NCBI RefSeq assembly: GCF_000372745.1
Contig: NZ_KB889712.1
Location: forward strand, 1 to 44,725
Length of the DNA: 44,725 nucleotides
Direction: 5' to 3'
Source: Embleya scabrispora DSM 41855
GTDB taxonomy: Bacteria > Actinomycetota > Actinomycetes > Streptomycetales > Streptomycetaceae
Part shown: positions 6,277 to 20,345 of the stretch, piece by piece
How positions within the stretch are numbered: the first letter of the stretch is position 1
Layout: every line of letters begins with the position of its first letter
The notes under the pieces: generated by a model
The model's input: the letters and a program-made list of their open reading frames with translations, nothing else
Databases searched by the model: none
What the model was told of the DNA's origin: nothing
Position numbers and translations under genes: made by a program

Positions 6277-6308
6277 GAGAATGCCTCCGCGAGACAAGGT
6301 TGCAGAAC

Positions 6309-8243
6309 ATGGGTGCCGCCATCACCAGGATCACTGCCACGACACCCCTCGCGCGGCCGCCGGTCTGGGCGATCCTGGAGCGCGAACTGTTCCGCCGGTT
6401 GGATGACGCGTGGCGGCGCTTCCAAGCGCTCTACTGCGCTGATGACGGGTCGCTGCGCTACAGCGGCGGAACTGTCGGTCGCGACGGGGCCGACGACTTC
6501 TATGAGCCCTTCTTCAACTGGCCGGTCCTGTACATGCTCGGCGGCGCGGACGACCTGCTCGAAGCCTGCAAGCACCACTGGCGCGGCGTGACCGCCCAGC
6601 TCACCGCCCGCGGCATGCTCACGGACGAGTACGAGAACGGCTACGACTGGTTCCACCAGGGCGAGTCTGCGCTCTTCTTCTATGGCATCTGCGCAGCGGA
6701 CCCTTCGGACGAACATTTCCGCGCACGCGCCTTGCGGTTCGCGAATCTCTTCCTCGGGGACTCCGAGACCGGCAACTACGACCCCGATCTCCGTATGATG
6801 CGCGCACCGCACATCGGAGCGGGAGGCCCCCTGCCGGGGCTTGGTGAGAACCAGCCGTACAGCGCCGACCTCGTCGGCATGGAGCCGTACGGTCTGCCGC
6901 TTCGCGACCTGCCCGGCATCACCGGCTGGTCGGATCTCGCGGATCCGGCGAACGCGAATCTGATGCGCACAGAGATGGACGCGCGGCTGGGCGCCGGCGA
7001 CGTCCCGATCAACCTCGCGGCCACCTCGCTCGCGGTCAACGCCTGGCTCTACGACCACGATTGGCGCTTCGCTGCCTTCGTGACCGACTACGTCGGCGCG
7101 TGGGCCGAGCGCACCCGCGACAACGGCGGCCTGATCCCCGACAACGTAGGCCCGACCGGACGCGTCGGCGAACTACACGGTGGGCGTTGGTACGGCGGCC
7201 ACTACGGCTGGACCTGGCCGCACGGCCTGCACAGTGTCGCGGCCGCCGCGCTGATCGGGGCGATCAACGCCACCCTGGTCGGCGGCGGGCCCGCCGGCCT
7301 GGATCTGCCCCGCAAGCCGCTCGAGAAGGCGCTGGCCCTGGCTCGACGCGCGGTCATGGATCCCTCCGAAGCCACCTTGTACGACCAGTGGGCCGACCGC
7401 CTCGGCGCGGATGCCGCCGGCCCGCTGCTGCTGGTGCCCTATCGCCGTGACGACGACGGCTGGTTCGACCACGAACCCATGCAGCCGGCCTTTCCGGCTT
7501 GGCTGTGGTGGACCAGCCGCGACCCGCAAGACGCGGCGACGTTGTCCGACCTGGCTGCGGAGTCGGGATACGACTGGCGAGAGGTCCGTGCCTTCCGCGA
7601 CAAGGAGGAGGCCGGGCACGAGGCCCCGTGGTGGACCTATCTGCACGGCGACAACCCCGACTATCCGGAATTGGCCCTGACCATGGCGCTGGGCCAGCTC
7701 AACCGGCAGCTCGCGCTCATGGAACGGTTCCCCACACCGCCGGTCGGCGACGACATCCACTGGTGGCAACGCCTGAATCCGGTGGTGACCGAGGTCCTGA
7801 CCCAGTTGGTCGGCGGTGCTCCGCAGATGCTCTACAACGGCGGACTTCCCCTGGCGCAGCTGCGCTGGGCAGACGTGCTGCGCGGCCGTCCGGGGCTGCC
7901 GGACCAGGTGTCCGCGCTCGTCGAGGAGATCGGCGAGGCACACACGACTGTCCTGGTGGTCAACCTGGACCCGGTCGCGGACAAGATCATCGAAGTCGTG
8001 GGCGGCGCGTACGACGAACATCCGATCGTCGCGGTGTCCTACGACGCCTTCGAAAGTGACTACCCCGACGACTCGCGGCGGTACCTGCCGCCGCCCGGTG
8101 AGCCCTCCGAACGCCGCGAGGAGGTTTCGGACCGCCTGCACATCCGCATCCCGGCACAGACGAGCATCCGGCTGCGCCTTGAGCACGACCGCTTCGGCCG
8201 CCGGCCACGGCATCAGGACCTGCACCGCAGGCCGTCGGTCTGA
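6309..8243 (+). CDS. Uncharacterised 644-residue protein, possible all-alpha-barrel sugar enzyme
   Basis: A large soluble protein without signal peptide or membrane segments. It is rich in Trp and acidic residues, with motifs such as DDFYEPFFNWPVLYMLGG (near residue 60-80), ENGYDWFHQGESALFFYG, GGRWYGGHYGWTWPHGLHS (about 290-310) and GDDIHWWQRLNPVVTEVLTQL. The spacing of Trp-rich helical blocks recalls (alpha/alpha)6 barrel glycosidases or isomerases, but I do not recognise the exact family and no activity is assigned. Its promoter carries the same operator as the importer and fucosidase genes, so it should act on the same sugar. ATG at 6309 has AAGG nine bases upstream; an in-frame TTG at 6300 is the alternative. 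Confidence 0.8.
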   Translation: MGAAITRITATTPLARPPVWAILERELFRRLDDAWRRFQALYCADDGSLRYSGGTVGRDGADDFYEPFFNWPVLYMLGGADDLLEACKHHWRGVTAQLTARGMLTDEYENGYDWFHQGESALFFYGICAADPSDEHFRARALRFANLFLGDSETGNYDPDLRMMRAPHIGAGGPLPGLGENQPYSADLVGMEPYGLPLRDLPGITGWSDLADPANANLMRTEMDARLGAGDVPINLAATSLAVNAWLYDHDWRFAAFVTDYVGAWAERTRDNGGLIPDNVGPTGRVGELHGGRWYGGHYGWTWPHGLHSVAAAALIGAINATLVGGGPAGLDLPRKPLEKALALARRAVMDPSEATLYDQWADRLGADAAGPLLLVPYRRDDDGWFDHEPMQPAFPAWLWWTSRDPQDAATLSDLAAESGYDWREVRAFRDKEEAGHEAPWWTYLHGDNPDYPELALTMALGQLNRQLALMERFPTPPVGDDIHWWQRLNPVVTEVLTQLVGGAPQMLYNGGLPLAQLRWADVLRGRPGLPDQVSALVEEIGEAHTTVLVVNLDPVADKIIEVVGGAYDEHPIVAVSYDAFESDYPDDSRRYLPPPGEPSERREEVSDRLHIRIPAQTSIRLRLEHDRFGRRPRHQDLHRRPSV

Positions 8244-10882: not shown

Positions 10883-12142
10883 ATGGGCAGAAGAAGAGCT
10901 TCAACGGCACTGGCCGGCATCGCCGCCGCGACGATGTTCATGACGGCGTGTGGCAGCGGATCCGGGAAGTCGGATGCCGGGGCATCGGGCGGCGAGGGCA
11001 CCGTGCGGATGCTGGTGAACATCACTCCGAACCTGACGCAGTCCTTCTGGAAGGACCTGGTGCGTCCCTTCGAGGCGGCGAACCCGGGGATCAAGGTCAA
11101 GATCGAGAGCCCGTCCTCGGCGTCGGTGGACACCACACTGACCACCGAGTTGGCCGCCGGTACCGAGCCGGACGTCGTGGAGGGCGCCAACATCCATCCC
11201 TTCGCCGAACGTCTGCTCGACCTGAGCGGGCAGCCCTGGGCCACCTCGGCGCCGCTTGCCGACAAGCTGGCCGTCGACGGCAAGACCTACGCCGTCCCGG
11301 TGGGTGTCCAGCTCCAGTCGCTGATGTTCTACAACAAGGATCTGTTCGCCAAGGCCGGCATCACCGCGCCGCCCACCACGATGGACGAGCTGACCGCCGA
11401 CATGGCCAAGCTCAAGGCCACCGGCATCAAGCCGGTGCAGACCGCCGGCGACTGGGTCACCGGCGCGCAGATCTCGATGATCGCCGCGCCGACCCTCCTG
11501 GGCAGGCAGCCCACCTGGTACACGGACGTCAATTCCGGCAAGACCAGCCTGACGGCCACCATGAAGCCGGTGCTGGACCTCTACAACAGTTGGCTGGGCG
11601 CCGGCTACCTCAACAAGGACGCTCTCGGTGTGAAGTACGCCGATGGTGAGGCCGCGTTCCTCGACGGCAAGGCCGCCATGTACCCGATGGGGAGTTGGTT
11701 CGCCGCGGCCGCCACGAACCCCTCGTTCCCGATCGGTGTCTTCCCCATCCCGGCAATCGACGGGACCGGGCAGGCGCCCATGGGCGTCTCGCCCACCGCG
11801 AACTACGCGATCTTCAAGTCGAGCAAGCACCAGGACGCCGCGCGGAAGCTGGTCGAGTACCTGACCAACAATAAGGACGCGGTGACCACCCAACTCAAGC
11901 AGGACGGCACGTTCCGCACCGGCTTCTCCTACCACGGCAGCGAACTCGGCGACGCGGTGCAAGGCATCCTGCAGCAGGTCGGCACCAACGTCGGCCCGAC
12001 CGGCGGCGGCTACGGCCCCGACCAACTGCCGGCCGGGTACGACACGCAGTTCAACAAGAACGTGCAGGGGTTGTACATCGGCCAATCGGTGCCGACCGTG
12101 CTGTCGTCGCTCGACAAGTGGCTGGCGGCGCAGCCGAAATGA
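10883..12142 (+). CDS. Sugar ABC transporter substrate-binding lipoprotein
   Basis: A 419-residue family 1 (MalE-like) extracellular binding protein. A basic N-terminus (MGRRRAS) and hydrophobic stretch lead to the lipobox FMTAC with Cys23, so it is lipid-anchored outside the membrane. The mature part has the usual features: FEAANPGIKVKIE, AAGTEPDVVEG, GKTYAVPVGVQLQSLMFYNK and the FLDGKAAMYPMGSW hinge block. It captures the sugar and delivers it to the two permeases downstream; context suggests L-fucose or a fucoside. ATG at 10883 has GGAGAAG upstream. Its stop overlaps the next start (ATGA). Confidence 0.92.
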   Translation: MGRRRASTALAGIAAATMFMTACGSGSGKSDAGASGGEGTVRMLVNITPNLTQSFWKDLVRPFEAANPGIKVKIESPSSASVDTTLTTELAAGTEPDVVEGANIHPFAERLLDLSGQPWATSAPLADKLAVDGKTYAVPVGVQLQSLMFYNKDLFAKAGITAPPTTMDELTADMAKLKATGIKPVQTAGDWVTGAQISMIAAPTLLGRQPTWYTDVNSGKTSLTATMKPVLDLYNSWLGAGYLNKDALGVKYADGEAAFLDGKAAMYPMGSWFAAAATNPSFPIGVFPIPAIDGTGQAPMGVSPTANYAIFKSSKHQDAARKLVEYLTNNKDAVTTQLKQDGTFRTGFSYHGSELGDAVQGILQQVGTNVGPTGGGYGPDQLPAGYDTQFNKNVQGLYIGQSVPTVLSSLDKWLAAQPK

Positions 12143-13026
12143 CCATGCTACGCCGGACCAGGAGCGCGCTACCGGGCGTGGTGATGAGTGCGCCCGCGAT
12201 CATCATGTTCGGGCTGCTGATGATCGTCCCGCTTGCTCTGTCCGTCTATCTCAGCTTTACGAACTGGAACGGCTACAGCGCGCATCCGATGGGTGTCGGG
12301 CTGGCGAACTACCGACGCCTCTGGCATGACCCTGAGGTCTTGCACGCGGCGTGGGTCACCGGGGTCCTGGCGGTGGTCGGGACCATCGGGTGCAACGCGC
12401 TGGGGCTGGGCGCCGCCGTGGCGATCAGCCGACCGGGGAAGGCGAACAGGATCTTCCGGGCCGTCTTCTTCTATCCCTACGTGATCAGTGCGCTGATAAT
12501 CGGGTTCCTCTGGTCGGCGATTCTGTCCAACGGTGGGGTGATCAACAACTACCTCACCTCGCACGGACACGAAGCACTGCCCTTCCTGTCCGATCCGGAC
12601 TGGGCCCTGGGCAGCTTGATCTTCGTGGTCCTGTGGTCCGGCTTCGGGCTCACCATGGTGCTGTACATCGCCGCCTTGCAGACGGTACCGGCTTCGCTGA
12701 TCGAGGCGGCGCGCATCGATGGCGCGAGCCCGTGGGCGATCTTCCGGCAGGTGACGATGCCGTCGATCGCGCCGTTCGTCACCGTCAACCTCGTCCTGGT
12801 CCTCGTGTCGATGATGCGCGTCTACGAGCTCGTGCTCGCGCTCACCGGGGGCGGGCCGGCGGGACAGACCCAGACCGCCGCCTATCTGATCCTCGGCCAG
12901 TCGTTCCAGAACAACGCGCTCGGTTACGGCTCGGCCCAAGCCGTGATCCTCACCGTGGTGACCGGCGCACTCGCGTTGGGGCTGACCACACTGCTGCGGC
13001 GGCGTGAAACCGCCGTCGCGGCATGA
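12139..13026 (+). CDS. Sugar ABC transporter permease (MalF type)
   Basis: A 295-residue integral membrane protein with about six transmembrane segments, the first at residues 15-38 (IIMFGLLMIVPLALSVYLSF). The coupling-helix EAA motif EAARIDGASPWAIFRQVTMP is present at about residues 190-209. It forms the channel with the next gene. The start ATG at 12139 overlaps the binding-protein stop by the ATGA arrangement. Confidence 0.93.
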   Translation: MTMLRRTRSALPGVVMSAPAIIMFGLLMIVPLALSVYLSFTNWNGYSAHPMGVGLANYRRLWHDPEVLHAAWVTGVLAVVGTIGCNALGLGAAVAISRPGKANRIFRAVFFYPYVISALIIGFLWSAILSNGGVINNYLTSHGHEALPFLSDPDWALGSLIFVVLWSGFGLTMVLYIAALQTVPASLIEAARIDGASPWAIFRQVTMPSIAPFVTVNLVLVLVSMMRVYELVLALTGGGPAGQTQTAAYLILGQSFQNNALGYGSAQAVILTVVTGALALGLTTLLRRRETAVAA

Positions 13027-13045
13027 CCTCACGGGAAGACCCACT

Positions 13046-13951
13046 ATGAGCAATCCGACCTCGCGGCGCTCCGACCGCCGTTCCCCCGCCCCGTCGCGCT
13101 CCGGCGCCGCCGGTCTGCTCCACACCTCGCGTGCCGCGACGCGCTGGGCGGGGTTGGTCCTCGGTTCGCTGCTGATGCTGGTGCCGATGTACGTGCTGGT
13201 CGTCAACGCTTTCAAGGACCAGGACGACATCCAGAACTCGCCGTTCGGCCTGCCCCTGAGTCGGTTGACACTCGCCCATGTCCAGGACGTTCTGGACAAC
13301 CCGGACTTCGACCTCGTCAAGGCATACGGCGTAACCCTGCTGTTCGTCGTCGTGGTGAACGTGCTCTCTCTGGCGGTCTGCGGGCCGGTCTCCTACGTGA
13401 TCGCGCGAGGGAGAGGGCGCCGCCATGTCGCTCTTCTGCTGATGTTCGTCGCCGGCACGTTCATCCCGAACCAGGTGCTGCTGATCCCCGTCGTATTCGT
13501 GTTGAAGACCCTCGGCCTGATGGGGACGGTCCCGGGCTTCGTCCTGTTCGAGACGTGCTTGACCATCCCGTTCTCGGTGTTCCTCTATGCCGCGTACATC
13601 CGCACGATTCCGCGGGAACTCGACGAGGCGGCGGCGATCGACGGAGCAGGCCGCATCGGCACCTTCTGGAGGATCGTCTTCCCTCTGATGCGACCCGTCG
13701 TCGCGACTGCGGTCATCCTGCACAGCCTGAGTATCTGGAACGACTTCGTCACCCCCCAGATCATCCTCGGACCGGGCAGTGGCCTGTACACGGTGACGAC
13801 CGGCGTCTACGCGGCGATCGGCCAGTACTCCACCAATTACACGGTCGTCTTCCCGAACCTTCTGTTGGCGATCGCCCCGGCACTGGCGTTCTTCATCGTC
13901 ATGCAGCGGTACATCGTGAACGGCCTGACCAGTGGCGCGACGAAGGGCTGA
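13046..13951 (+). CDS. Sugar ABC transporter permease (MalG type)
   Basis: A 301-residue membrane protein. A Ser/Arg-rich N-terminal tail is followed by transmembrane segments starting at WAGLVLGSLLMLVPMYVLVV, and an EAA loop DEAAAIDGAGRIGTFWRIVF. No ATPase gene is present in this operon or elsewhere in the window. In actinomycetes such importers usually share the general ATPase MsiK, so energy coupling probably comes from elsewhere in the genome. Confidence 0.93.
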   Translation: MSNPTSRRSDRRSPAPSRSGAAGLLHTSRAATRWAGLVLGSLLMLVPMYVLVVNAFKDQDDIQNSPFGLPLSRLTLAHVQDVLDNPDFDLVKAYGVTLLFVVVVNVLSLAVCGPVSYVIARGRGRRHVALLLMFVAGTFIPNQVLLIPVVFVLKTLGLMGTVPGFVLFETCLTIPFSVFLYAAYIRTIPRELDEAAAIDGAGRIGTFWRIVFPLMRPVVATAVILHSLSIWNDFVTPQIILGPGSGLYTVTTGVYAAIGQYSTNYTVVFPNLLLAIAPALAFFIVMQRYIVNGLTSGATKG

Positions 13952-14025: not shown

Positions 14026-14811
14026 ATGACGTCGCAACTCACCCACACCGAGAGCGCCGAAGTCCCGTGGGACATTCCGGTACGAGGGACCCGCCGTACC
14101 GAAACCGCCCCCGGACTCGTCGCCGAACTCGGCCGCGTCAGCTCCGCGACCGCGTGCGCCAAACTGCACGCCGACGGCATCAGGCGCACCTTCGTGCACG
14201 GGCCGACGCCGCTCGTACCCGGGCAGCAGGCCACCGGGGTCGCGCGAACATTGCAGTTCATGCCCCAGCGCGAGGACGTGGCCAGTGGCCTCGGCCAGGA
14301 GGACGTGGAGAAGCACACCGCGCTCTGGGAGGTGCTCGAGATCATCGAGCCCGGAGACATCCTGGTCGTACAGGCCTTCGGAAGCCCGTTCGCCGGATGC
14401 TTCGGCGACATGCTGGTCCGCTATTTCAAGAAGAAGGGCGGCGCCGGAATCGTGGTCGACGGCTACATCCGCGACGCGCCGCGCGTGAAGCAACTCGGGG
14501 TGCCGATCTGGTGCCGCGGTACGACCCCGCACTACGCCTCGCAATCCGACCTGTTCCCCTGGGGATACGACGTGCCGGTCGCCGTCGGCGGCGTGCTGTG
14601 CCTACCCGGTGACCTGGTGATCGCCGACGACGACGGTGCGGTGGTGGTACCCGCGGCCAAGGCGCCGGCGGTGGTGGAGACGGCGCGCGACCACGAGCAG
14701 TGGGAGGTGTTCAGCCGCCTCAAGATCGACGACGGTGCCCGCCTGGGCGACTACTACCCCCTCACCCAGGCCACCCGCGACGAGTACGAACAGTGGCGGC
14801 GAGACGCGTAG
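14026..14811 (+). CDS. RraA-like protein, putative pyruvate aldolase or related enzyme
   Basis: A 261-residue RraA/HMG-aldolase superfamily protein. The core GDMLVRYFKKKGGAGIVVDG and YIRD (residues 127-150) keeps Asp128, then 20 residues, then Arg149-Asp150, the arrangement linked to pyruvate enolate chemistry in class II pyruvate aldolases of this family. The acidic residue usual three positions after that Asp in aldolases is Arg here (RDAPR). It is longer than RraA (about 160) with extra C-terminal sequence. In a fucose operon it could cleave or dehydrate a deoxy-keto sugar acid (inference). ATG at 14026 has GGAG/AGGAC upstream; ATG at 13975 is a weaker alternative. Confidence 0.82.
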   Translation: MTSQLTHTESAEVPWDIPVRGTRRTETAPGLVAELGRVSSATACAKLHADGIRRTFVHGPTPLVPGQQATGVARTLQFMPQREDVASGLGQEDVEKHTALWEVLEIIEPGDILVVQAFGSPFAGCFGDMLVRYFKKKGGAGIVVDGYIRDAPRVKQLGVPIWCRGTTPHYASQSDLFPWGYDVPVAVGGVLCLPGDLVIADDDGAVVVPAAKAPAVVETARDHEQWEVFSRLKIDDGARLGDYYPLTQATRDEYEQWRRDA

Positions 14812-14851
14812 CCGAGACGAATCACGCGCCCATCACCGGAAGGTCCCGCCC

Positions 14852-15178
14852 ATGGAACGACGCGTGCGCCGGACTCGGCTGCGCCCCGGCCGGCAGACCC
14901 GCTACCGCCTGATCCACGCCCGAGTGCCGGACCGGCTCGCCGACGCACTGCGAGACGCCGGGGTCCAGAGCTGGGAGATCTGGTGCGACGGGTTGTCGCT
15001 GATCCACATCATCGACTGCGTCGTCAGCTATGACGCGACGATGGCGCACCTGTCCGCCTACGAGCCGGATCCGACGTGGGACGAACTGATCGCCGAGTGC
15101 CTGGACCCGGCTCCGGAGGCCAACACGAGCCTGCAGCAGGTCTGGTACCTCAACTCGGCGACGCAGGGCCCGGGCTGA
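14852..15178 (+). CDS. L-rhamnose/L-fucose mutarotase (DUF718/RhaM-like)
   Basis: A 108-residue protein of the RhaM ferredoxin-like mutarotase family (typical length about 104). The N-terminal strand RYRLIHARVPDRL carries the conserved His22, and SWEIWCDGLSLIHI carries the Trp/Tyr-type sugar-binding strand. The C-terminal WYLNSATQG tail is shortened relative to the family. It interconverts alpha and beta anomers of 6-deoxy sugars, feeding the dehydrogenase. In known non-phosphorylating fucose clusters a mutarotase of this kind sits with the other pathway genes. ATG at 14852 has GGAAGG upstream. Confidence 0.85.
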   Translation: MERRVRRTRLRPGRQTRYRLIHARVPDRLADALRDAGVQSWEIWCDGLSLIHIIDCVVSYDATMAHLSAYEPDPTWDELIAECLDPAPEANTSLQQVWYLNSATQGPG

Positions 15179-15358
15179 CACCGGATCGCGCGGCGAGCCT
15201 CCGTGGAACCGCACAGCAGCCCCGTCGCCGCTGTGCAGAGCGGGAAGGTCGCCGAGCACATTCCACACCTGGGGCGGTGACCCGCACCGAAATCGACAGC
15301 CGGAGACGGCGAGGTCACCGCACCTCTTCTTCCGCACCCCGCATGGACAGGAACCCCG

Positions 15359-15553
15359 TTGCTTTCCGACACCACCGCGCGGGTCGTCGCTGTGGATACC
15401 CACGACATCCGCTTCCCGACGTCCCGGGAAATCGATGACCCGAACCCGATGCACCCCGACCCCGACTCCTCGGCCGCACACCTGATTCCGCGTACCGAGA
15501 CTCCCGACGATCCGGCCGCTGCCGACATACCCACGACGAAGGTGTCCGCATGA
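15359..15553 (+). pseudogene. L-fuconate dehydratase remnant, internally deleted
   Basis: The 64-codon frame, TTG start with AGGA seven bases upstream, reads ARVVAVDTHDIRFPTSREID then PNPMHPDPDSSAAHLIPRTE before running into DDPAAADIPTTKVSA and a stop. The first part aligns closely with the N-terminus of enolase-superfamily L-fuconate dehydratases ([32 protein letters not shown]). A functional enzyme is about 430-440 residues; the capping-domain remainder, the KxK base, the Asp/Glu/Glu metal ligands and the His-Asp pair are all missing. The end overlaps the SDR start as ATGA, so the deletion left the translational coupling intact. This is the missing enzyme of the pathway. Confidence 0.85.
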
Positions 15554-16308
15554 CCGTCGAACTCACCGGACTCCGTGCTCTCGTCACCGGCGGCGCTTCA
15601 GGAATCGGGCTGGCCGTCTCCCGGCTGCTCATCGAGCGGGGGGCCCGAGTGGCCGTCCTAGATCTTGCCCCATCCGACTGTGAGCCGCCCCTGACAGCGC
15701 TTCAGGCCGATGTCGGGAACGACGCCTCCGTCAGGAACGCCGTGAGAAGCGCCGCGGCAGCCCTCGGCGGGATCGACATCCTCGTCAACAACGCCGGTAT
15801 GGGCGCCGTCGGCACCGTGGAGGACAACCCCGACGAGCAGTGGCACCGCGTCCTCGACATCAATGTCCTCGGCATCGTTCGCGTGACCCGTGCCGCGCTG
15901 CCCCACCTGCGCCGCTCCCCACACGCCACGATCGTCAACACCTGCTCGATCGCCGCGACGACCGGGCTCCCCCAACGCGCCCTGTACTCCGCGAGCAAGG
16001 GAGCCGTCCTCTCACTCACCCTGGCCATGGCTGCCGACCACGTACGAGAAGGCATCCGGGTCAACTGCGTCAACCCCGGAACGGTGGACACACCCTGGGT
16101 AGGCAGGCTGCTGGACGCCGCTGCGGACCCTGCGGCGGAACGCGCGGCGCTCGACGCCCGCCAGCCCCACGGGCGTCTGGTCACCGCCAACGAGGTGGCC
16201 GCCGCCATCGTGTATCTGGCCGGTCCGGCGGCCGGCTCCGTCACCGGTTGTGCCCTGGCAGTCGACGGTGGAATGGCCACACTGCGACTGAGACCGGTGA
16301 GCCCATGA
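15550..16308 (+). CDS. SDR oxidoreductase, probable 2-keto-3-deoxy-L-fuconate dehydrogenase
   Basis: A 252-residue classical short-chain dehydrogenase: cofactor motif TGGASGIG at 13-20, NNAG at 80-83, catalytic Asn104, Ser133, Tyr146 and Lys150 (YSASK), and an Asp at the end of the second strand (LDL), which favours NAD+. In the non-phosphorylating fucose pathway this enzyme oxidises 2-keto-3-deoxy-L-fuconate to the 2,4-diketo acid, the substrate of the FAH hydrolase encoded next. The assignment rests on that pairing; L-fucose dehydrogenase is an alternative. Confidence 0.88.
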   Translation: MTVELTGLRALVTGGASGIGLAVSRLLIERGARVAVLDLAPSDCEPPLTALQADVGNDASVRNAVRSAAAALGGIDILVNNAGMGAVGTVEDNPDEQWHRVLDINVLGIVRVTRAALPHLRRSPHATIVNTCSIAATTGLPQRALYSASKGAVLSLTLAMAADHVREGIRVNCVNPGTVDTPWVGRLLDAAADPAAERAALDARQPHGRLVTANEVAAAIVYLAGPAAGSVTGCALAVDGGMATLRLRPVSP

Positions 16309-16488
16309 GCCAATACCTGAGGAGAGAGCCGCTGGGCGGCAACTCCCCTCGGCCGCACCGCCCGTGAGCCGACTGCACCTGCCGTAGACGTGCCACACCG
16401 TACTCGCCGGACGTGGCCCCCTTCCGCAGGACTCACGGAGCAGTTGAACCACCAGCGCAGATCAGCCTCGGAAAGGTAGGACATTCCC

Positions 16489-17340
16489 ATGAAGTTCGTG
16501 CGGCTCGGCCCGGTTGGCGGTGAGCGCCCGGCGGTCCGTTCCGATGACGGCCGGCTGTGGGATCTCGCGCCGCTCACCAAGGACATCGACGGTGCCTTCC
16601 TGGCCTCGGGTGGGATCGCGCGCGTCGAGCGGGCCATGGCGGCCGGCGAGTTGTCGCCGCTCGATGGCGACGGACTGCGTGTGGGCGCGCCGATCGCCCG
16701 GCCCGGCAAAGTCGTCTGCATCGGACTGAACTACCAAGATCATGCCGAGGAGACGGCGGCCGAGGTGCCGGAGCGCCCGATCGTCTTTATGAAGGCATCC
16801 GACACAGTGGTGGGGCCGTACGACCGCGTCCTCGTCCCTCGCGGGTCGAAGAAGACCGACTGGGAGGTGGAGCTGGCACTCGTCATCGGCGCCCGGGCGC
16901 GCTACCTTGACAGCCCGGACGCCGCCCGCGACGCGATCGCCGGTTATGCGATCAGCCACGATGTCTCGGAACGAGCATTCCAGCTCGAACTCTCCCCGCA
17001 ATGGGACCTGGGCAAGTCCTGCGAGACGTTCAATCCACTGGGGCCCTGGCTGGTGACCTCCGACGAGATCAACGATCCGCAGGACCTGGGGCTGCGGCTG
17101 CGCGTCAACGGCGTGGAGCGGCAGAACGGCACCACAAGGAACATGATCTTCAGCGTGGACCACATCGTCTGGTACCTCAGCCAGTACATGGTCCTGGAGC
17201 CCGGTGACGTGGTGAACACCGGAACTCCCGCAGGCGTAGCGCTGGGTCTGCCCGGCGAGCCGTACCTTCGCGCCGGGGACACGGTGGAACTCCACATCGA
17301 TGGCCTCGGGTCGCAGCGGCAGACGTTCGGCCAGGCCTGA
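16489..17340 (+). CDS. Fumarylacetoacetate hydrolase family protein, probable 2,4-diketo-3-deoxy-L-fuconate hydrolase
   Basis: A 283-residue FAH-fold protein: the binding loop CIGLNYQDHAEE (residues 77-88), then RPIVFMKASDTVVGPYD, the metal ligands Glu126 and Glu128 (DWEVELA) and Asp158 (SHDVSER), and the C-terminal GDVVNTGTPAGV. Members of this group hydrolyse 2,4-diketo acids; in fucose degradation the products are pyruvate and L-lactate. It lies 180 bp after the SDR, in the same direction, and is the last intact gene of the operon. ATG at 16489 has AGGA upstream. Confidence 0.9.
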   Translation: MKFVRLGPVGGERPAVRSDDGRLWDLAPLTKDIDGAFLASGGIARVERAMAAGELSPLDGDGLRVGAPIARPGKVVCIGLNYQDHAEETAAEVPERPIVFMKASDTVVGPYDRVLVPRGSKKTDWEVELALVIGARARYLDSPDAARDAIAGYAISHDVSERAFQLELSPQWDLGKSCETFNPLGPWLVTSDEINDPQDLGLRLRVNGVERQNGTTRNMIFSVDHIVWYLSQYMVLEPGDVVNTGTPAGVALGLPGEPYLRAGDTVELHIDGLGSQRQTFGQA

Positions 17341-18404: not shown

Positions 18405-19319
18405 TCAAATGGCATCGGGACGCGTGATATCCAGGCGATACAGTCTGCTTGCCGTTCCAGTGCCTACGGCGCACCGCTCAGTTTCGGTGAGCTCACTGAC
18501 CAGTTGTCGGTACGCTCCCATCACGCCGGGGTAGGTGCCTGCAAGCAGGCTGACGGGCCAGTCCGATCCGATCGCGACGCGGCACGGGGAGAACGCCGTG
18601 AGGACGACGTCGGCGTACGGGCGCAGGTCGGCGACGGTCCAAAATTCGTGGTCTGCTTGTGTGACCAAGCCAGACAGTTTGCAGTGGACGTTGGCACGGC
18701 GAGCCAGCGTGGCGATCCCAGCCGCCCATGGATTGATGGCACCTTCGGCGATCGGCGGGTTGCCGGCGTGGTCGAGCACAAGCCGCGTGTCCGGTGCGGC
18801 GTCGGCCAGACGAGCAGCCCAGGCGAGCTTCGGTGCGGTAGTGATGAGGTCGAAGGTGAGGTCGTACCGCGCGAGCGTGCGCAGCCCCCGAGCCAGCTTC
18901 GTGTCCGTGAAGTCGTCCTCGTGGGCGTGGATCAGGTTGTAGCGGACACCTCGAAGCCACTGCCCTCCCGGCGCGGTCAGCAGCGACTCGAGATCTCCGG
19001 GGAGGTGATCGGACCGCAGGTCCGCGTAGCCGACGACACCGGCGATCAGCGGCCGGGCGGCGGCCTGCTCCAGCAGATAGCGTGTCTCGGCCGGCTCCGA
19101 CAAAGCCTGTACGGCGACGGCCGCGGTGATGCCTGCTTCGGTGGCCAGCGGAGCGAGATCCGCCGCCGTCCACGCGCGATTCAGCAACTGCGAATGCCGA
19201 TCGAGCCAATCGTGCCGGTGCTGGGCCGGGTCCCACAGGTGGTGGTGCGCGTCAACCATCGGCAGCCGCGGCCCCGTTTCGGGATCGGTGGTCGCAGGGT
19301 GTGGCGTTGCGGCGGTCAT
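18405..19319 (-). CDS. Amidohydrolase (COG3618), probable L-fuconolactonase
   Basis: A 304-residue amidohydrolase-superfamily TIM barrel. The metal site shows the VDAHHHLWD motif (His25 and His27), LVLDHAGNPP (His184) and IGSDWPV (Asp253), the COG3618 pattern found in L-fucono- and L-rhamnono-lactonases. It opens the aldonolactone made by the sugar dehydrogenase. Its ATG at 19319 overlaps the stop of the aldo-keto reductase gene (ATGA), so the pair forms an operon. The last residues (TRPDAI) are read from sequence that belongs to the adjacent IS5 scrap, so the C-terminus has probably been replaced after LYRL; catalytic residues are unaffected. Confidence 0.88.
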   Translation of the reverse strand: MTAATPHPATTDPETGPRLPMVDAHHHLWDPAQHRHDWLDRHSQLLNRAWTAADLAPLATEAGITAAVAVQALSEPAETRYLLEQAAARPLIAGVVGYADLRSDHLPGDLESLLTAPGGQWLRGVRYNLIHAHEDDFTDTKLARGLRTLARYDLTFDLITTAPKLAWAARLADAAPDTRLVLDHAGNPPIAEGAINPWAAGIATLARRANVHCKLSGLVTQADHEFWTVADLRPYADVVLTAFSPCRVAIGSDWPVSLLAGTYPGVMGAYRQLVSELTETERCAVGTGTASRLYRLDITRPDAI

Positions 19320-20293
19320 CGCCAGCGTCCGGACGCCAGAGCCGGCTGCATCTCCTGTGCCGCCGCGTCCAGTTCGGCCCAGAGTAGGTCCGGGAGCCGC
19401 CGCTCGACCAATGTCGTCAGTTCCTTGACTTCCTGTGCGCTGCCCGCTCCGAGAAGCGTGTTCTCGACCAGCGGGTTCCGGCTCGGGAACTGCAGCGCCG
19501 CGGTAAGCAGCCGTTCGCCGTGCCGATCGCAGATGTCCGCCAGACGCCGGGCCGCGATGAGCACCTCGGGACGTACCGGCTGGTAATCGAAGACTTCATT
19601 GCGGTCGGGATCGGCGAGCAGCCCGCTGTTGAGGACGGCGCCGGCTATCACCTTCACGCCCCGGCTCCGGCACAGCGGCAGCAGCGATTCGGCCGCGACC
19701 TGGTCGAGCAACGTGTACCGACCGGCCACGAGGACGTAGTCGATCTCGGTCTCGGCGACCAGCCGTCGCAGGCCGGGCGTCTGGTTCATCCCCACGCCGA
19801 TCGCCGAGACCAGCCCCTGCGCCCTGAGCTCGGTCAGGGCCGGGATCGCCGTCTCGACGGCTTCGTCGAGGTAGTCGTCGGGATCGTGCAACAAGGCGAG
19901 GTCGACGCGGTCGAGCCCCAGCCGTTCCAGACTGTGGGTCAGCGACTGCTCGATGCCGGCCCGGCTATGGTCCCGCACGCGGACCAACCCGGACCCGTCG
20001 GGGGCCCGGCCCGGCTCGATCGGGCGTCCACCGGCCTGGTGGGGCGGCAGCAGCAGCCGCCCCACCTTGGTCGAGACCAGGAAATCCTGGCGTGGCTGCG
20101 AAGCAAGGAAGGCTCCCAGCCGGCGCTCGGCCGAGCCGACGCCATAGTGCGGTGCCGTGTCGAAGTATCGGATGCCGGCTTCCCACGCGGCGGTCAAGAC
20201 GTCGCGCGAGCGGTCGGTCTGCGTACCGAGCGATGCGGTACCGAGCCCGCGCGGCGGCAGAGCCAAGCGGTGGGACACCCCTGTATCGGTCAT
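19316..20293 (-). CDS. Aldo-keto reductase, probable L-fucose (aldose 1-) dehydrogenase
   Basis: A 325-residue AKR barrel. The catalytic tetrad is Asp45, Tyr50, Lys76 and His136 (RYFDTAPHYGVG, STKVGRLL, LALLHDPDD). The sequence type (RGLGTASLG at the start, RLLLPPHQAGGRP, FPSRNPLVENTLLGAG) resembles D-threo-aldose 1-dehydrogenases that oxidise L-fucose to the lactone. It is followed by a lactonase gene, which is the matching next step. ATG at 20293 has GGAGGT upstream; longer starts would run through the operator. Confidence 0.88.
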   Translation of the reverse strand: MTDTGVSHRLALPPRGLGTASLGTQTDRSRDVLTAAWEAGIRYFDTAPHYGVGSAERRLGAFLASQPRQDFLVSTKVGRLLLPPHQAGGRPIEPGRAPDGSGLVRVRDHSRAGIEQSLTHSLERLGLDRVDLALLHDPDDYLDEAVETAIPALTELRAQGLVSAIGVGMNQTPGLRRLVAETEIDYVLVAGRYTLLDQVAAESLLPLCRSRGVKVIAGAVLNSGLLADPDRNEVFDYQPVRPEVLIAARRLADICDRHGERLLTAALQFPSRNPLVENTLLGAGSAQEVKELTTLVERRLPDLLWAELDAAAQEMQPALASGRWR

Positions 20294-20345
20294 CGACACC
20301 TCCGACGAAGTCGCGGCCTGTTGGCACGCAGCCAATACTCCAACT

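Follow-up and report, generated by a model that had tools for sequence, protein, structure and literature searches.

The locus described here raises the question of how a sugar catabolic operon is completed when one of its genes has been reduced to a short remnant, and why that remnant should still form an open reading frame that runs into the next gene. The window, by which we mean the whole 44,725-nucleotide stretch of Embleya scabrispora DSM 41855 that was analysed, carries genes that fit a non-phosphorylating pathway in which a mutarotase, a 1-dehydrogenase, a lactonase and a dehydratase act in turn, after which the route divides into two branches, one through an aldolase and the other through a 4-dehydrogenase and a diketo-acid hydrolase (as described in PMC11199699, where the L-fuconate dehydratase is named FucC). 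Judged by protein family, the window contains a plausible candidate for each of these steps but the dehydratase. On the forward strand lie a probable sugar ABC transporter made up of a binding protein and two permeases (10883..13951; open reading frames, with a Pfam match, SBP_bac_1, for the binding protein only), an RraA-like protein (14026..14811; aldolase/RraA, Pfam PF03737, E 3.3e-31), a sugar mutarotase of the rhaM family (14852..15178; Pfam PF05336, E 1.5e-13), an SDR that is probably the 2-keto-3-deoxy-L-fuconate 4-dehydrogenase (15550..16308; Pfam adh_short_C2), and a fumarylacetoacetate-hydrolase (FAA hydrolase) family protein that is probably the 2,4-diketo-3-deoxy-L-fuconate hydrolase (16489..17340; Pfam FAA_hydrolase, E 4.6e-70), whose best NCBIfam match, 2,4-didehydro-3-deoxy-L-rhamnonate hydrolase, falls under the cut-off. 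On the reverse strand are an amidohydrolase, probably the fuconolactonase (18405..19319; Pfam Amidohydro_2, with L-fucono-1,5-lactonase as its best NCBIfam match, again under the cut-off), and an aldo/keto reductase, probably the sugar 1-dehydrogenase (19316..20320; Pfam PF00248, E 1.7e-45). The first-pass annotation described the pathway neighbours as intact, and they are indeed open reading frames of the expected families; the SDR, which is open and conserved, departs at one of 125 conserved columns, and across 96 reference SDRs the count ranges from 0 to 8, being 0 or 1 in 83 of them. A tRNA scan of the window and a promoter and terminator scan of 14700-16600 found none of these elements.

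Between the mutarotase and the SDR lies the stub (15359..15553, forward strand), a 64-codon frame. Its residues 8-54 (15380..15520, forward strand) align to residues 6-52 of the L-fuconate dehydratase 1yey at E 9e-12 in a phmmer search of PDB sequences, which bears out the earlier recognition of about 45 N-terminal residues of this enzyme. The proposed alignment of the stub to known enzymes was carried out and yielded, at E<=10, six PDB matches, namely four fuconate dehydratase entries, 4ip4 (MR/MLE-like) and 4a35 (mitochondrial enolase superfamily member 1), all of which are also matched by a full-length relative. Searched against the genome from which it comes, the stub protein finds three full-length genes and one broken copy (E 8e-13 to 1e-8); neither Pfam (E<=1) nor NCBIfam (E<=0.01) offers a match for it. 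The barrel of fuconate dehydratase carries the metal and acid/base residues of the enzyme. The stub resembles the L-fuconate dehydratases of the enolase superfamily (PDB 1yey, 2hne, 2hxt) in its N-terminal ~47 residues, its C-terminal tail and its place in the operon ahead of the SDR, but differs from them in that conserved N-terminal residues are altered and the catalytic barrel (MR_MLE_C) is missing, so that nothing remains beyond the initial ~50 residues and the tail. The genome has 14 occurrences of the MR_MLE_C domain, none of them on the contig of the window (C151).

The stub begins with TTG, six bases downstream of a Shine-Dalgarno-like AGGA (15349..15352, forward strand), and the duplex energy over the 20 bases that precede the start is -6.5 kcal/mol, compared with a median of -3.5 for random 20-mers. 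A TTG, GTG or ATG stands eight codons ahead of the first motif column in 93 of 149 intact dehydratase genes (among the 12 commonest start patterns), and the TTG of the stub lies one codon further 5'. At the other end, the TGA stop of the stub and the ATG of the SDR at 15550 share a four-base ATGA overlap. The ribosome site and the overlap had both been described before and stand as described. Going by the start, the ribosome site and the overlap, the stub is predicted to be translated.

That the gene collapsed from within is indicated by what remains at its two ends. The final 16 bases of the stub (15538..15553, forward strand), which comprise the SDR ribosome site, the stop codon and the ATGA overlap, recur unchanged at the end of an intact paralogue elsewhere in the genome (C109:104402-105724); among 149 other intact genes, the closest agrees at 13 of the last 15 bases. 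Because this 3' end is kept alongside the N-terminus, we conclude that an internal, in-frame deletion removed ~370 codons, in agreement with the earlier estimate; intact homologues span ~420-465 codons, counted from the first aligned residue, against 64 in the stub. No intact orthologue of this stub copy was found, so that the deletion junction can be placed only approximately. The first-pass annotation had recognised only the N-terminus of the stub, and the preserved 3' end is an addition to it.

The retained codons have also drifted. Over 37 aligned N-terminal codons, we compared the stub with 149 intact genes at 27 columns conserved at >=97%, these columns having been defined on the same 149 genes, which favours the intact genes in the comparison. 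The conservation of the N-terminal motif has not been retained: the stub is changed at 9 of the 27 columns, 7 of which are invariant across all 149 intact genes, while those genes depart at none (138 genes), one (9), two (1) or three (1). The ratio of differences at codon positions 1 and 2 to those at position 3 is 0.90 in the stub, compared with a median of 0.29, although one intact gene reaches 0.95. With most of its coding sequence lost and relaxed constraint on the codons left over, the stub has the character of a gene remnant.

These observations bear on the possibility that a full-length gene is truly present at this site and that the stub is an assembly or sequencing error. The genome is a draft in 190 contigs with several paralogues that are 72-73% identical to the reference copy, conditions under which a misassembly might be suspected. 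However, the kept piece is altered at sites that never vary in intact genes, and a search of the genome with a full-length query (E<=1e-10) found no orphan middle or C-terminal piece of a dehydratase; for these two reasons an error is unlikely, and paralogues so divergent are themselves unlikely to have been collapsed by an assembler. We regard an artefact as extremely improbable.

If the deletion is real, the dehydration step must be sought elsewhere, and the first-pass annotation had offered three prospects: that the route is broken, that the enzyme is encoded elsewhere, or that another protein of the operon has taken over. A search of the genome supports the second of these, with full-length fuconate dehydratases at C109:104402-105724, C109:12028-13326 and C10:5042-6334. 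Given these three genes, a broken route is unlikely for the genome as a whole, and the dehydration step of the window operon is probably performed in trans by a paralogue. The genome also has another fuconate dehydratase that is broken, on C38 (L302 1982-2484), where residues 1-72 and 64-168 are in different frames and unrelated sequence follows residue 168. On C109 (G000:C109 ~103637-103899; L303 4638-4900), a broken FAA-hydrolase gene, with two matching pieces in different frames, adjoins an intact dehydratase-SDR pair, the reverse of the window operon with its intact FAA hydrolase and broken dehydratase; the two paralogous operons may complement each other. A further paralogous operon on C106 (G000:C106; L305 4907-12199) comprises an SDR, an aldo/keto reductase, an amidohydrolase and an FAA hydrolase; it has no close fuconate dehydratase, and an enolase-superfamily gene, 30% identical, lies nearby.

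The third prospect, that the dehydratase has given way to the RraA-like protein or to some other product of the operon, was addressed by searching 394 genomes of the class for RraA (E<=1e-60). It is present in 10 of them, including that of the window, and all nine of the others carry a full-length fuconate dehydratase, although in G516 and G554 the sole near full-length match is flagged for a stop, with none within residues 1-426 of the aligned dehydratase. The three transporter genes stand together beside RraA in six of eight other stretches. The window also encodes a 647-residue protein (6300-8243) for which Pfam gives no match at E<=0.01; its relatives adjoin RraA in five other stretches (L287-L291), and three of the eight stretches with RraA relatives (L287, L288, L289) combine this protein with RraA and the same transporter. 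One of these speaks for replacement, in that the G589 stretch (L288) continues with an aldo/keto reductase and an amidohydrolase and contains no dehydratase. Against this, the G493 stretch (L289) has a fuconate dehydratase ~8 kb from RraA, and Pfam groups RraA with the aldolases, which would act downstream of the dehydratase step. RraA was not found beside any of 80 SDR loci, each examined for ~8 kb in both directions or as far as the contig reached. Since the dehydratase is full-length in all nine other genomes that have RraA, a takeover is unnecessary, and we consider it very unlikely.

We then asked of related loci how often a dehydratase gene has decayed at this operon position. Among the matches listed, 210 SDR-orthologue loci with 187 distinct upstream stretches were compared; one listing of SDR places was covered through 30 loci and 100 further stretches, to the exclusion of 20 of its rows, namely the last 19 and G089:C2:1432627. 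An intact-like dehydratase precedes the SDR in 149 stretches (2 of them interrupted by a stop within the aligned part), 30 have no dehydratase match over the 1.6 kb upstream of the SDR, and 8 are odd. The odd loci include, besides the window, two further internal deletions: Streptomyces sp. CBMA123 has lost 251 codons in frame between imperfect repeats and Streptomyces sp. Ru73 has lost 386 codons in frame, with drift at 6 of 25 conserved positions, and both retain the ATGA overlap. The remaining five are dehydratase copies without the 5' part (L182, L236 and L256), a frameshift (L134) and a contig edge (L174). In L256, the C-terminal ~100 dehydratase residues are joined out of frame to an apparent piece of an ABC-transporter ATPase upstream of the SDR. 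A screen for short frames, which covered the listed matches, brought to light L295, L297 and L299 with frame changes, L298 with an N-terminal part alone, and L296 with a contig end. A separate search of the genomes gave a second partial copy in G338, again the N-terminal part alone (L300). Where a draft genome shows a single frame change, a sequencing error may be the cause. Despite out-of-frame decay of the dehydratase upstream, the SDR is open in L134 and L297; it looks frame-shifted or partial in L295, where it lies in two frames, and in L299, where the match extends over just 57 residues.

A full-length dehydratase is encoded elsewhere in five of the six remnant-carrying genomes checked (those of the window, Ru73, G314, G244 and G338). 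In the sixth, the draft genome of CBMA123, no other close fuconate dehydratase was found, and redundancy thus does not explain the CBMA123 case. For the window, we hold with high confidence that the stub arose through decay of a redundant gene.

The three genus mates searched place the event in a closer context. The first-pass annotation had proposed looking in related strains for a full-length gene at this spot. A full-length dehydratase adjoins an SDR in both G001 and G002 (G003 has no close dehydratase), but in a DNA search the whole RraA-mutarotase-stub-SDR block was absent among the matches listed, which consisted of separate pieces only (the SDR, the FAA hydrolase and the dehydratase start). 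Nor was a similar stub found in any of the three, two of which have the full-length gene. This has consequences for the notion that the stub encodes a novel small protein with a function, such as one that regulates a paralogous dehydratase through its N-terminal piece. An open frame with a ribosome site is what such a protein would need; set against that are its drift at conserved sites, its lack of Pfam and NCBIfam matches at the thresholds given above, and its absence from the genus mates, and we judge a new protein to be highly improbable.

There remains the question of why the frame persists. Coupling at overlapping genes has been demonstrated experimentally (PMC6728339), and the window shares with such pairs a four-base ATGA overlap and a ribosome site within the upstream frame, though its upstream partner is a dead gene fragment and its coupling is putative. 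Short open reading frames with ribosome delivery as their only role have been proposed (PMC12548453); the stub is likewise short and directly overlaps the next start codon, but would instead stem from the collapse of a long gene, its function being putative. Like those short frames, the stub has a start with a ribosome site and overlaps the start of the next gene. A four-base overlap (ATGA or GTGA) of dehydratase stop and SDR start is found in 133 of 149 intact operons, and the window retains it. The window SDR has an unusually weak ribosome site of its own, with a Shine-Dalgarno energy of -6.5 kcal/mol where the median is -10.7, and 136 of 139 relatives have a stronger site; its accessibility is 0.27 compared with a median of 0.39, and 16% of intact relatives are less accessible still. 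The corresponding sites are ordinary in Ru73 (-10.3) and CBMA123 (-12.0), and thus a general rule of coupling is not supported.

The simplest alternative is that the stub is a pseudogene remnant without a role, its frame open and in register by chance, with paralogues supplying the enzyme. In a neutral simulation at 0.17 substitutions per site (a value reckoned by hand from 9 changes over 54 first and second codon positions), 84% of stubs acquired no stop, and between 6 and 40% escaped frameshifts as well, according to the indel rate chosen, so that a stub stays open by chance often enough. The simulation does not support frame retention as proof of selection, and frame retention alone is not statistically compelling. 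Moreover, the C38 copy in the same genome is frame-changed and truncated, and the out-of-frame decay upstream of open SDRs in L134 and L297 indicates that coupling is not strictly required. Chance alone accounts less readily for the weak ribosome site of the window SDR, or for the finding that all three internal deletions (window, Ru73 and CBMA123) are in frame and keep the overlap, for which the chance probability is 1/27, although the frame in CBMA123 is set by the in-phase imperfect repeat. Decay without any role for the stub is in our estimation a serious candidate that falls somewhat short of an even prospect.

The reading that we favour combines decay with coupling. A redundant fuconate dehydratase gene has lost ~370 codons by an in-frame internal deletion, the leftover codons have drifted from the enzyme consensus, and the downstream SDR is conserved; dehydration for the window operon would be supplied in trans by a paralogue. 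The stub would still be translated, and ribosomes finishing at the ATGA would begin again on the SDR, a gene with a weak ribosome site of its own, so that the stub frame might persist at least partly through ribosome delivery to the SDR. We give such delivery an even chance, and the combination of redundancy-driven decay with a frame kept at least in part for this purpose is likewise evenly poised. In the literature searched, which was largely without subscription journals, there was no obvious report of remnants kept for coupling.

The event in the window is a real and ordinary decay of a spare gene, with an in-frame collapse that may preserve translational coupling. It is a more tentative, and on balance doubtful, proposition that where a redundant enzyme is coupled, selection filters decay for in-frame collapse and dead genes repeatedly become ribosome-delivering frames; the three instances at one operon position (window, Ru73 and CBMA123) would then represent such repeated conversion. 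If coupling is the wrong explanation, the locus would be a case of ordinary spare-gene loss, and a warning that an operon lacking a step may be completed from elsewhere. If it is the right one, the shape of pseudogenes in operons would be non-random, as overlaps would select for in-frame collapse, and this would help to distinguish remnants that serve translation from those that are inert.
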